DNA from: Flavobacterium azooxidireducens
Lineage (GTDB): Bacteria > Bacteroidota > Bacteroidia > Flavobacteriales > Flavobacteriaceae
DNA length: 64,000 bases
Assembly (NCBI RefSeq): GCF_023195775.1
Contig: NZ_CP096205.1
Coordinates: 3,617,001-3,681,000, forward strand
Direction: 5' to 3'
The position numbers and the translations under genes were made by a program. Each line of letters starts with the position of its first letter. Positions within the stretch are counted from its first letter, which is position 1. This document shows positions 25,877-40,832 of the stretch, piece after piece. The notes under the pieces were generated by a model. That model was not told where the DNA came from, did no database searches, and saw only the letters and a program-made list of their open reading frames with translations.

Positions 25877-25915
25877 TAGGATTGCTGAGTTTAGATTTAA
25901 AAAAGGAACGCGGAT

Positions 25916-25975
25916 TTTTTTGATTAGCTAAAGCTAAACGCGGAATTGAACAGATTTTATTTGCTTCGCAAACGC
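25916..25975. repeat. Solo copy of the ACGCGGATTT-type dispersed repeat
   Basis: GAACGCGGATTT, a GCTAAAGC core, AACGCGGA and a TTTGCTTCGCAAA hairpin follow the order seen in the arms that flank the GxxExxY gene at 38885-39444. It sits in the 200-bp gap between the HAD and tcdA genes; no ORF is attached here. Confidence 0.6.
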
Positions 25976-26823: not shown

Positions 26824-27480
26824 TTACAAATTGCGGTGAAAAACTTTGTCGAAATTTGTTTTTATGAGTGACTTTAATTCTTCAATTTCTATGTTTTTAT
26901 AGTTTGCTCCTAAGGCGTAAACTTCTTCTAATGATTCTTCAATTGTATCGGTTTCCAGAAAAAATCGATCGTTTGGTACGGATTGAAAAACTGATTTTAA
27001 TTCCGGATTTCGCAATAAATATTTTCCGAAGGAAAGGTAAAATCCGTTATCCAAAAGTTGCTTTGCTGTTTGTTCGTTTTTGGAAAATCCGTGAATAATC
27101 ATTGGAACTGTGACGTTTTGTTCTTTTTTGATTTGGATAATTTCCTGAAAAGCAGCAACGCAGTGCAAAACTAATGGTTTTTGATGTTTTTCTGCTAATA
27201 AAATTTGTGCTTTGAACACTTTTTCTTGAATTTCTATAGGAATTTCGATGCGTTTGTCTAATCCGCATTCGCCTAAAGCGAGGCAATTTTGATGAGAAAG
27301 TTCTTTGTCAATTATTTGTAAATCAGATGACAATCGACTTTCATCAATGTACCAAGGATGAATTCCGATGGAATAAAAAGGTACTGAATCATCAAATTCC
27401 CACGGATATTGATTGACCAGTTCGAGAATGTTTTCTTGATTGGTAAATTTGTGTGTATGGAGGTTGAAGAGTTTAGACAC
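26824..27480 (-). CDS. TatD-family metal-dependent hydrolase
   Basis: The product of about 218 residues has the TatD metal-binding start FNLHTHKF, LGECGLDKR with the Glu ligand, HCVAAFQEI, and FLETDTIEESLEEVY with the terminal Asp. The family comprises deoxyribonuclease-like hydrolases. No ATG is available: in-frame GTG codons lie at 27498, 27489 and 27480. The one at 27480 gives a start close to the motif, as in homologues. The upstream GTGs lie in a dispersed repeat. It is 28 bp from tcdA. Confidence 0.85.
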   Translation of the reverse strand: MSKLFNLHTHKFTNQENILELVNQYPWEFDDSVPFYSIGIHPWYIDESRLSSDLQIIDKELSHQNCLALGECGLDKRIEIPIEIQEKVFKAQILLAEKHQKPLVLHCVAAFQEIIQIKKEQNVTVPMIIHGFSKNEQTAKQLLDNGFYLSFGKYLLRNPELKSVFQSVPNDRFFLETDTIEESLEEVYALGANYKNIEIEELKSLIKTNFDKVFHRNL

Positions 27481-27505
27481 GGATTTCACGGATTTTCACA
27501 GATTA
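27471..27505. repeat. Dispersed CACGGATTT-type repeat fragment over the tatD start
   Basis: TTTAGACACGGATTTCACGG and a second GGATTTTCACAGATT run resemble the TTTAGAACGCGGATTTGACAG arm of the repeat at 38885-39444. It overlaps the possible GTG start codons of the tatD gene. Confidence 0.45.
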
Positions 27506-37854: not shown

Positions 37855-38805
37855 ATGCAAAACATTCCTAGTGTTGACTTGCGTGATTTCCTGTCGGATG
37901 AACCGGCACGTAAACAAAAATTTGTAAATGAAATCGGAAAAGCTTTCGAAGAAATAGGCTTCGTAGCACTTAAAGGTCATTTTTTAGATGACAAATTGGT
38001 TGATGAATTATATGGCGAAATTAGAAATTTCTTCGCTTTACCCTTAGAAACCAAATACAGTTATGAGATTCCAGGAATTGGAGGTCAACGTGGCTATGTA
38101 TCGTTCGGAAAAGAACACGCAAAAGGCAAAAAGGAAGGCGATTTAAAAGAATTTTGGCACTTTGGTCAATATGTGAGCAAAGATTCAAAATATGCCGCTG
38201 AATATCCTGATAATGTTGAAGTAAAAGAGCTTCCTCGTTTTAACGAAGTTGGTAAAGAAGCTTATCAAATGCTGGAAAAAACAGGTATTTATGTGTTGAG
38301 AGCATTGGCTTTGCATTTAGGTCTTGACGAATTCTATTTTGATAAATACGGTAGAGAAGGAAACTCAATTTTAAGACCAATTCACTATCCACCAATTACT
38401 TCAGAACCTGAAAATGCTATTCGTGCGGCTGCTCACGGCGATATTAATTTGATTACCTTATTGATGGGTGCTCAAGGAAAAGGGTTACAAGTACAAAACC
38501 ACAATGGAGACTGGATTGATGCAATTGCTGAACCGGATGAATTAGTGATTAATGTAGGTGATATGTTGTCACGTCATACAAACAATAAATTAAAATCTAC
38601 CATTCATCAAGTAGTAAATCCACCTAGAGAATTGTGGGGAACTTCACGTTATTCTATCCCATTTTTTATGCATCCGGTAAGTGATATGCGTTTGGATGTA
38701 TTGGAAAATTGTATTGATGAAAATAATCCCAAATTATACGAAGACATTTCTGCTGGAGAATTTTTGCACGAACGTTTGGTTGATTTGGGATTGATTAAGA
38801 AGTAA
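37855..38805 (+). CDS. 2-oxoglutarate/Fe(II) oxygenase, isopenicillin-N-synthase family
   Basis: The ATG at 37855 gives MQNIPSVDLRDFLSDEPARK and 316 residues. The N-terminal DIOX_N-type domain is followed by a jelly-roll with AAHGDINLITLL (first His and Asp ligands), KSTIHQVVNP (second His) and SRYSIPFF, whose Arg binds 2-oxoglutarate. The family hydroxylates or cyclises small molecules; no substrate is evident and no NRPS genes are near. Upstream lies a textbook promoter and downstream a terminator. Confidence 0.9.
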   Translation: MQNIPSVDLRDFLSDEPARKQKFVNEIGKAFEEIGFVALKGHFLDDKLVDELYGEIRNFFALPLETKYSYEIPGIGGQRGYVSFGKEHAKGKKEGDLKEFWHFGQYVSKDSKYAAEYPDNVEVKELPRFNEVGKEAYQMLEKTGIYVLRALALHLGLDEFYFDKYGREGNSILRPIHYPPITSEPENAIRAAAHGDINLITLLMGAQGKGLQVQNHNGDWIDAIAEPDELVINVGDMLSRHTNNKLKSTIHQVVNPPRELWGTSRYSIPFFMHPVSDMRLDVLENCIDENNPKLYEDISAGEFLHERLVDLGLIKK

Positions 38806-38824
38806 TTTACATTTGAATTATTAT

Positions 38825-38860
38825 AAACCAAATCTCATCTTTTTGGGGTTTGGTTTTTGT
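38825..38860 (+). terminator. Rho-independent terminator
   Basis: AAACCAAATCTC (38825-38836) pairs with GGGGTTTGGTTT (38845-38856), two pairs being G-T, followed by a T-rich run. Confidence 0.75.
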
Positions 38861-38884
38861 TTTTGAAATAATGCTACACGCCAT

Positions 38885-39444
38885 TTTAGAACGCAGATTT
38901 GACAGATTCGCTAAAGCGAAACGCTGATTTTTACAGATATAAACCATAAAAAATAACTATATGCACTTATTACACAAAGAATTAACAGCACTCATTTTAA
39001 AAACATTTTATGAAGTATATAATGAACTAGGATACGGATTTCTGGAAAAAGTTTACCAAAATGCTTTATTTTTAGAATTAAAAGAAAAAGGTTTAAATGT
39101 TGTTCCCAACAAGAAGATTAGAGTTTTTTATAAAGGAAATAATGTTGGTGATTATTATTCCGACTTAATCGTTAATGATACTGTTATATTAGAATTAAAA
39201 GCAGCTGAATGCGTAGTTGATGAGTTTGAAACACAATTATTAAACTATTTGAGAGCAACAGACTGCGAAGTTGGTTTGTTACTTAATTTTGGTAAAAAGC
39301 CTGAATTCAGAAGAAAAGTATTTGAAAATAAAAGAAAGATAAGAAAAAATCCGTTTTAATCAGATCCTTGCGAAGCAAATCCGTCCCGATAGCAATCGGG
39401 ATCAGCGTTTCGCTTTAGCGAATCTGTCAAATCCGCGTTCTAAA
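38885..39444. mobile_element. Inverted-repeat-bounded GxxExxY unit (candidate mobile element)
   Basis: The left arm (38885-38928) and the right arm (39401-39444) are 44-bp inverted repeats with one mismatch. Each arm starts TTTAGAACGC and contains GCTAAAGC inside a small hairpin and an AACGCTGAT end. Between them is a single intact gene. The right side has a further CCCGAT/ATCGGG hairpin (39385-39400) and a TTGCGAAGCAA hairpin. The unit lies between the oxygenase and SUI1 genes, which I think are neighbours in relatives. I see no clear target-site duplication. Mobility is inferred only from this structure and solo relatives elsewhere. Confidence 0.55.
38961..39359 (+). CDS. GxxExxY protein (PD-(D/E)XK nuclease-like)
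   Basis: The 132-residue product has the naming motif in GFLEKVYQNALFLELKEKG (G-x-x-E-x-x-Y). YYSDLIVNDTVILELKAAE provides the Asp and Glu-x-Lys expected for the PD-(D/E)XK core (Pfam PDDEXK_3). Proteins of this family occur in many copies in some genomes, with no settled function. The gene lies inside inverted repeats of 44 bp, starting 32 bp after the left arm and ending 41 bp before the right arm. A nuclease activity is inferred from the fold motif. Confidence 0.9.
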   Translation: MHLLHKELTALILKTFYEVYNELGYGFLEKVYQNALFLELKEKGLNVVPNKKIRVFYKGNNVGDYYSDLIVNDTVILELKAAECVVDEFETQLLNYLRATDCEVGLLLNFGKKPEFRRKVFENKRKIRKNPF

Positions 39445-39455
39445 TAAATAATACT

Positions 39456-39791
39456 ATGCACGATTTAAGTGAACAACTCAAAAAACTCTTCCCCGACCAT
39501 CAACCTTCCAACGAACCGGAACAAGTTGATGAAACACCACACGAATTATACGTTCAAAAAGAACCGATAATTTGTCAATACGAAAAACGAAAAGGCAAAC
39601 CAACCACGATTATTTCAGGTTATGAAGGAACCGATGAAGACTTCAAAATCTTAGCCAAAGAAATAAAGAGTAAATTTGCCGTTGGCGGAAGTTTCAAAGA
39701 CGGTGAAATCATCATTCAAGGTGATTACCGTGATAAAATAATGAAATTTCTACAAGAAAAAGGATTTAAAACCAAACGTGTAGGAGGATAG
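39456..39791 (+). CDS. SUI1/eIF1-like translation initiation factor (YciH family)
   Basis: The 111-residue product has the SUI1 fold: KRKGKPTTIISGYEGTDEDF, then LAKEIKSKFAVGGSFKDGEI and a final IQGDYRDKIMKFLQEKGFKT. In eukaryotes the homologue checks start-codon choice; bacterial YciH proteins are thought to act at initiation under some conditions. It begins directly after the right arm of the inverted-repeat unit, only 11 bp away, so the repeat lies in its promoter region. Confidence 0.93.
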   Translation: MHDLSEQLKKLFPDHQPSNEPEQVDETPHELYVQKEPIICQYEKRKGKPTTIISGYEGTDEDFKILAKEIKSKFAVGGSFKDGEIIIQGDYRDKIMKFLQEKGFKTKRVGG

Positions 39792-40745: not shown

Positions 40746-40832
40746 TATTGAGCAGAGAAAACGGATTTCAAAAATTAGGGAAATTTTTAAAATTATTTTA
40801 ATTTCTTAAATCAGTGTTCCAAAAAATAACAA

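Follow-up and report, generated by a model that had tools for sequence, protein, structure and literature searches.

The unit at positions 38885–39444 of the 64,000-nucleotide stretch of Flavobacterium azooxidireducens DNA analysed here (contig NZ_CP096205.1, positions 3,617,001 to 3,681,000; hereafter the window) carries a single gene for a predicted nuclease of the GxxExxY type between inverted arms. It is best explained, with a probability that we place just on the favourable side of even, as one of many pairs of a nuclease and its cognate repeat, a resident enzyme and a dispersed repeat population working together in the manner of the RAYT-REPIN systems. The parts of this explanation accessible to direct comparison are arms built from inward-directed units, the correspondence between arm and nuclease subfamily, gene-less copies that are commoner where the gene is present, and site states that vary by species. 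The nuclease itself may drive the spread of the repeat: each GxxExxY protein would recognise units belonging to its cognate arm class, probably as hairpins or single strands, and its PD-(D/E)XK centre would cut there; through host repair or replication, short pairs of arms would then infrequently be copied into new positions between genes, while the copy that bears the gene would seldom move.

The Window Element

The host genome comprises 3.82 Mb in one contig. The inverted pair 38885–38928/39401–39444 (44 nt, 43/44 or 98% identical, 472 nt apart) is the sole pair reported in the region 38600–39700, and gene-sized blocks stepped along the window reached an arm score of at least 34 in 2/647 cases, both at this locus (score 83), and in 0/645 elsewhere. 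The left arm on the plus strand, which starts with GAACGCAGATTTGACAGATT and belongs to an arm class common to relatives, has its units directed toward the gene, and an extra unit ACAGAT lies beyond it at 38933–38938; the right arm (minus strand) is the left arm inverted. Between the second and third units of the left arm, the hairpin TTCGCTAAAGCGAA can be read directly at 38907–38920 (plus strand), with its counterpart TTCGCTTTAGCGAA in the right arm at 39409–39422 (minus strand). Two smaller hairpins on the minus strand were likewise read directly, TTGCGAAGCAA ahead of the right arm (39368–39378) and CCCGATAGCAATCGGG adjoining it (39385–39400), the latter missing in the relative G127. The sole gene inside the arms is the GxxExxY gene on the plus strand (38961–39359, 132 aa), whose product matches PF13366 with 136.9 bits (cut-off 22) and TIGR04256 with 130.4 bits (cut-off 35). 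By eye, the neighbouring genes resemble those of a 2-oxoglutarate oxygenase (end at 38805) and of SUI1 (start at 39456). An earlier note on this DNA, which had described 43/44 inverted arms around an intact GxxExxY gene together with extra hairpins, was accurate on both counts, as the repeat search, the family matches and the hairpins listed above confirm.

The GxxExxY Protein

The residues G26xxE29xxY32 as well as D68, E78, and K80 are invariant in the nine GxxExxY proteins of the host genome and in 60 aligned proteins, and the structure model (pLDDT 90.4) finds matches to nucleases. The window protein is thus predicted to be a small PD-(D/E)XK core with nuclease function, in line with the core proposed in the earlier note. 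Cas4, lambda exonuclease, and the Hjc nucleases have the fold in common with it; the PDB search of the window protein gave no sequence relative (best E 0.55), and a shared fold shows no shared function. In Pfam, the only match at E ≤ 1 was PDDEXK_3, with neither the HUH Y1 tyrosine transposase nor any other transposase among the results. A role in anti-phage defence was considered and rejected, as neither the window protein nor the subfamily member L012 matched a PADLOC model at E ≤ 0.01. The ratio dN/dS of the window gene against its counterpart in G127 is 0.12, and values of 0.01–0.12 were obtained for 11/12 pairs of GxxExxY genes; the exceptional value for L239/L251 (0.86 at a protein identity of 88%) probably arose because the aligner had dropped a stop sign. 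These ratios suggest that the gene-bearing copy is held under purifying selection. A stop within the matched stretch, noted in 23/83 genus genes, may be where a shorter protein naturally ends, and these genes are not taken as decayed.

Inverted Arms at Other GxxExxY Genes

The host genome contains nine PF13366 genes, eight of which sit between inverted arms of their own (scores 34–83); the ninth, L013, has no clear arms (score 20). At an arm score of at least 34, arms were found at 59/83 genus loci with full flanks and at 44/74 named loci with full flanks, the named loci being drawn from the best 80 of 569 and all belonging to one broad subfamily, against 4/1055 control blocks in named loci and 0/96 in other genus loci. 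About 30–40% of the genus and named GxxExxY loci have no arms at score 34. Short flanks led to the removal of 2/85 genus and 6/80 named loci, and L052 and L056 (short flanks) as well as L061 and L064 (broken fragments) were also omitted before the counts. The controls for named loci used flanks of 300 nt and the main arm counts 350 nt, the figure of 44/74 being the same either way. For the contig scan, four closer proteins served as query, the alignment of the nine host proteins being too diverse. In a previously unseen set of 29 loci from other genomes of the phylum, none of which is a near copy of an earlier locus, arms reached a score of at least 34 in 12/29 and of at least 30 in 20/29 (controls 0/86). 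The outcome that the earlier note had named as speaking against its proposal, a lack of arms around other GxxExxY genes, does not hold on these counts; arms recur in the host genome, in the genus, among the named loci, and in the unseen set.

The arm-bearing named records bear titles of Bacteroidota, Cyanobacteria (Nostoc sp. 106C), Planctomycetes (ZRK34, complete genome), Acidobacteria, Lentisphaerae, Verrucomicrobia, Chloroflexi, Desulfobacteraceae, Geobacter, KSB1, and Proteobacteria, which amounts to about ten phyla by record title, many of the records being metagenome bins whose labels may err. The locus L085, titled Rhizobium sp., has flanks related to Flavobacterium loci and is probably misassigned. 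The flanks of the host locus L008 are related to those of the Flavobacterium-named loci L076, L077, L079, and L095.

Construction of the Arms

Arms in the host genome vary by locus and are made of repeated short units, namely CGCAAAG, CACAGAAAA, CCACGGAT, GAACGCGGATT, CACTGATT, CACATAG, and CACGGATTTCACGAATTT. The core CRCNRAK occurs in the arms of 120 elements 483 times toward the gene and 14 times away from it, at a density of 52.7 per kb in arms versus about 2 per kb in the flanks. At least two inward units in an arm are present in 89/120 elements, at least two outward units in 3/120, and the spacing of successive units is mostly 8–12 nt. The unit counts, and the Mantel counts of the following section, cover 120/174 elements, those whose arm score is at least 30 and whose arms are short (at most 80 and 75 nt, respectively). 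Because CRCNRAK had been defined after inspection of these very arms, it was tested on the 29 unseen loci, with 83 inward and 5 outward occurrences.

Of 58 distinct class-B arms, 36 carry a perfect 5-bp stem after the second unit, the place taken by TTCGCTAAAGCGAA in the left arm of the window element, compared with 1.5% in shuffled sequences. The stems themselves vary in sequence (TTCGC, TTTAC, TTTGC, TTAGC, TTCGA, and others), and since the stem is kept despite these differences, the hairpin speaks for a recognition of the folded single strand. Concerted change of the two arms was seen by eye in two cases between the host genome and G127; in 24 pairs, both arms differed at 52 columns where 18.6 were expected, and at 29 of the 52 the change was alike. 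These counts were set aside as evidence because the elements had been selected for matched arms. The left arm occurs seven times in tandem, at a spacing of ≈ 83 bp, beside the GxxExxY gene of L178 (G013:C4:408438-408955).

Arm Class and Nuclease Subfamily

Arranged in the order of the protein tree, the loci have arm ends and units that shift together with the protein motif: genes with the motif GFLEKVY have arms of GGAACGCGGATnnnACGGATT, GFSEIVY of CCGCAGATTCGCAGATT, GLLEIVY of GCCACGAATTTCACGAATTT, GFLEAVY of CGAATTAAAGCGAATTA, GLLESAY of TTAACCGCAAAGnnCGCAAAG, and the main GLLESVY group of TCTCGCAAAGACGCAAAG. Protein identity and arm similarity correlate across the 120 elements with rho 0.46, a value reached in 0/500 permutations; with permutation restricted to genes of the same genome (56 genes, 20 genomes), rho was 0.30 and 0/1000 permutations were as high. 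For 52/56 genes the arm was closer to that of the gene with the closest protein in another genome than to that of any co-resident gene. Without pairs that share flanks the number drops to 35/56 (random choice: mean 19.2, maximum 28), and for this reason the correlation is in part the descent of whole loci. In distant families of the phylum, GFLEKVY genes occur again with GAACGCGGAT- or GAACACGGA-like arms (L314, with a score of only 27, and L334, with 41). Taken together, arm sequence goes with the nuclease subfamily both within and between genomes.

Gene-less Arms

Three solo relatives of the arms had been pointed out in the window by the earlier note. All three are indeed relatives of arms, but they do not form one class: by eye, the copy at 25905–25975 (plus strand) is a lone arm of the same class as the window arms with two internal hairpins and no gene, the copy at 27475–27504 (plus strand) is a short solo array GACACGGATTTCACGGATTTTCACAGATT similar to the arms of the GxxExxY locus L016 of the same genome, and the copy at 40749–40820 (strand undefined) is a degenerate gene-less arm pair or lone arm similar to the arms of L053, with other sequence in its place in G127. 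With up to three mismatches, the window arm pattern has 15 sites in the host genome, two of which are the window arms themselves and most others of which look like lone arms; the reversed pattern has 0 sites at the same tolerance. Class B looks mostly lone in the host genome. A scan of 264 kb of this genome for strong gene-less pairs gave three inverted pairs at a score of at least 36, one of them an arm pair. Gene-less arm pairs are few in the host genome.

For class D, the 150 listed genus sites include 42 inward pairs within 200 nt, 1 outward pair, and 2 same-way pairs, and 33 of these 42 listed inward pairs have loops of 8–24 nt. Five further inward pairs among the listed sites stand 385–461 nt apart, about the length of the gene. 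The gene-less loops at the listed sites fall into two groups of 8–15 and 21–24 nt, about one helical turn apart.

Over 61 genomes, solo copies were counted as copies minus two per gene, a few broken genes counting as presence. The presence of a class-B gene was set at E ≤ 1e-30, the class-B pattern fitting only part of its subfamily, and that of a class-D gene at an identity of at least 64%, a threshold placed at a gap seen in the list. The median of class-B solo copies was 6.5 in 26 genomes with the gene versus 1.0 in 35 without (p 0.004), that of class D 4 in 19 genomes with versus 0 in 42 without (p 0.0014), kinship of the genomes being ignored in both comparisons. The cross-class control with the non-matching gene gave p values of 0.36 and 0.13. 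The association of gene and repeat has an AUC of 0.70 and 0.72; 6/26 class-B genomes with the gene have no copies beyond two per gene, 5/19 class-D genomes with the gene have at most two sites, and up to 25 (class B) and 20 (class D) copies occur in genomes that lack the matching gene. Solo repeats are therefore moderately commoner where the matching gene is present.

These dispersed copies bear on the possibility that the protein merely binds the arms and controls its own gene or chromosome structure, with nothing moving at all. The unit arrays close to the start codon and the long residence at shared sites would suit such an operator function. It would leave aside that the arms flank both sides of the gene, including the downstream one, that gene-less pairs and lone arms stand kilobases away from any GxxExxY gene, and that the occupied or empty state of a site varies between species, and we consider it highly improbable.

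Site States and Residence

The loci used for the comparison of sites were picked from search output, so their counts are not frequencies, and the site survey scored about two candidates per genome, so that a locus missing there carries no meaning. In the picked loci, the window site was empty at 15, held a GxxExxY gene at 12 besides the host genome (both flanks matched in 10), and at 2 loci contained an arm pair lacking the gene, the two pairs being of different classes. The empty and filled alleles that the earlier note had proposed to look for are thus found alongside a gene-less state, and its counter-scenario of a gene that is syntenic in all relatives without arms is at odds with the 15 empty loci. 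The L008 site is empty at 5 loci, contains the gene-sized element in the host genome and G065, and has gene-less pairs or arms of two classes elsewhere. The proB–argF spacer (names by eye) differs by genome: it carries a GFLEKVY unit in two (G049 and G042), a CACGAATT pair with no gene in one (G006), and an unrelated gene in another (G063). Neither G049 nor G042 has an element at the window site, so that members of the GFLEKVY subfamily are found at more than one place across the genus. A search of ten gene-filled genomes for this spacer gave no match to the neighbouring gene at E ≤ 1e-60. At L177, L182, L188, L189, and L336, different arm classes occupy the same spacer across species, for which hot spots or class replacement are possible.

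Flank sharing was observed in 55/55 pairs of genes at a protein identity of at least 85%, in 93/106 at 80% or more, and in 128/211 at 75% or more; accordingly, 0/55 pairs in the first group reside at unrelated sites. A gene shares flanks with its nearest relative in 64/86 cases. With L012 as query, matches were found in 7/72,556 plasmid records and 0/50,697 phage records. The gene copies thus seem to be old residents that rarely move. The autonomous unit with derivatives envisaged in the earlier note survives insofar as both gene-bearing and gene-less forms exist, but finds no support as a unit that spreads, given the shared flanks and the plasmid and phage counts. Both features would better suit an enzyme that stays in place and whose cognate repeats are dispersed. 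No transposition event was observed, and at the flank identities at hand a target-site duplication was resolved at none of the empty sites, which are too diverged for it.

Between the host genome and G127, the window gene has a dS of 0.08, compared with 1.01 and 1.09 for the left neighbours and 0.19, 0.43, 0.68, and 0.67 for those on the right, which is a sign of a recent exchange between the two lineages. In the comparison of 38885–39444 with L176, the locus in G127, the tract of young dS starts sharply at the left arm and fades rightward. Across 33 chosen flank-sharing pairs, 5 of them saturated, gene dS was similar to neighbour dS except for L083/L089 (gene 0.11, neighbour 1.15, with the left side alone measured) and L049/L216 (gene 0.28, neighbours 0.50–0.70).

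Such dips would be expected if the nuclease cut a sister genome at the unoccupied site or at an arm array without the gene, the unit then being copied in by recombination with conversion of the flanks. A homing-like process of this kind, directed to a fixed site, predicts that copies share their sites and that empty alleles exist, and both are seen. On the other hand, the same dS tract can be obtained from ordinary recombination; in the 28 pairs with unsaturated gene dS, all but the two named have a gene similar to its neighbours, most values being too high for resolution; and the dispersed gene-less pairs would be left unexplained. Homing is therefore regarded as unlikely, and the resident enzyme with dispersed cognate repeats is preferred.

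The PF05635 Family

The same layout is found in a second protein family. All four PF05635 genes of the host genome (4/4) have inverted arms made of units, and among the PF05635 loci L032–L035 and L276–L305, 22/32 reach a score of at least 34, the four host genes included (controls 0/96). By eye, their arms are alike within subfamilies, the types being TTAGACTTCTTAGA, TTCTAAGTTTCTAAG, TTCAAAGG, and TGTATATT. PF05635 proteins are four-helix bundles and not nucleases, and since their genes share the architecture, a nuclease is not needed for arms.

Two unrelated families with one layout could mean that another enzyme or replication slippage moves the repeat family of which the arms are part, and that GxxExxY genes, like those of PF05635, were caught between them as passengers. 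Along these lines, the seven tandem left arms in G013 imply that arms are copied without the gene, and gene-less pairs of different classes occur in the same spacer across species. A passenger, however, would not be expected to have its own arm class per subfamily, within and between genomes, nor cognate-specific repeat counts, nor a dN/dS near 0.05. This origin appears decidedly unlikely.

In Coxiella, a PF05635-type protein, S23p, is encoded by the 23S intervening sequence, with tandem heptamers GACAGAT ahead of the gene, and inverted repeats are discussed for such sequences in passages of PMC4990558. This precedent would be consistent with an action at the level of RNA, the arms pairing in the transcript and the insert being excised or tuned as RNA like the 23S rRNA intervening sequences. 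The conserved arm hairpins would agree with it, as would the intergenic position of the elements at the sites examined, which at proB–argF directly follows the stop codon. Mismatches between arms, however, have no wobble excess on the gene strand (92 versus 132 on the other strand; transversions 353/577), which argues against pairing in the gene's own transcript, and the region 38700–39600 gave a single Rfam match far below threshold. We deem an RNA-level function very unlikely, and return to the nuclease with its cognate repeats in what follows.

Relation to Known Systems

RAYTs are REP-associated tyrosine transposases of the HUH type. The GxxExxY system resembles theirs in that a resident enzyme gene is accompanied by cognate short repeats, that these form inverted pairs with short loops (42 inward versus 1 outward among the 150 listed class-D sites), and that genomes with the enzyme have more repeats (p 0.004 and 0.0014, kinship ignored). 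As described in PMC3116915 and PMC8049555, REPINs are hairpin-forming inverted doublets that are more numerous with the enzyme, which is vertically kept; vertical retention and rarity on or absence from plasmids are a further likeness. The GxxExxY enzyme, in contrast, matches the PD-(D/E)XK family, a fold unrelated to the HUH tyrosine transposase, and the window system thus stands outside the RAYT-REPIN family. It differs as well in arms that are arrays of CRCNRAK-like units and extend over about ten phyla by record title, and in nine genes, eight with arms, in the host genome.

The 23S intervening sequences (S23p/PF05635) are similar in having one gene of ≈ 120 codons between inverted ends, and PF05635 loci share the arm layout, whereas the window element has protein genes on either side and its PF13366 product is of an unrelated family. 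Insertion sequences and MITEs have terminal inverted repeats, gene-bearing and gene-less forms, and empty sites in common with the element. Unlike them, the window unit has no transposase (its single gene gives PDDEXK_3 only), its arms are unit-built and subfamily-specific, and close copies of the GxxExxY gene share sites, with no target duplication resolved at the diverged empty sites. Intergenic arrays of the heptamer TAACTGA have been reported from Beggiatoaceae, Cyanobacteria, and Bacteroidetes, their origin being left unexplained in the passages of PMC4679880 that treat them; they resemble the arms as short direct-repeat arrays between genes scattered over phyla, and differ in that those passages do not connect them with a gene lying between arms.

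Searches of the open-licence PMC literature for GxxExxY, PDDEXK_3, PF13366, and six arm oligonucleotides brought up no account of an association between gene and arms. What appears to be new is that the partner is a PD-(D/E)XK nuclease and that enzyme and arm diverge together; the parts are of known kinds. In a wider and more tentative reading, whose chances we would set somewhat below even, GxxExxY proteins would be the sequence-specific partners of very widespread intergenic repeats (arrays of CGCAAAG, CACGGATT, and CACAGAT), a separately arisen, nuclease-based counterpart of RAYT-REPIN with many co-diverging pairs per genome, PF05635 forming a parallel system of which the 23S intervening sequences are one offshoot. 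A partnership of nuclease and repeat would suggest what this functionally uncharacterised nuclease family does and where the unexplained short intergenic repeat arrays of many phyla come from. Next to RAYT-REPIN, it would be a second case, arisen independently, in which an enzyme resides in bacterial genomes together with a population of its cognate repeats. Eight natural enzyme–arm pairs in one genome are available for comparison, and the arm classes provide matched and mismatched substrates for DNA recognition by small PD-(D/E)XK nucleases.

A protein of 204 aa, RAYT-like by eye only and with no Pfam match at E ≤ 0.001, was noticed at L208:1825-2439 (G000, ≈ 1986.8–1987.4 kb); it carries an NHFHF motif, is inserted relative to G127, and has GTCAAAG-containing repeats at its borders.
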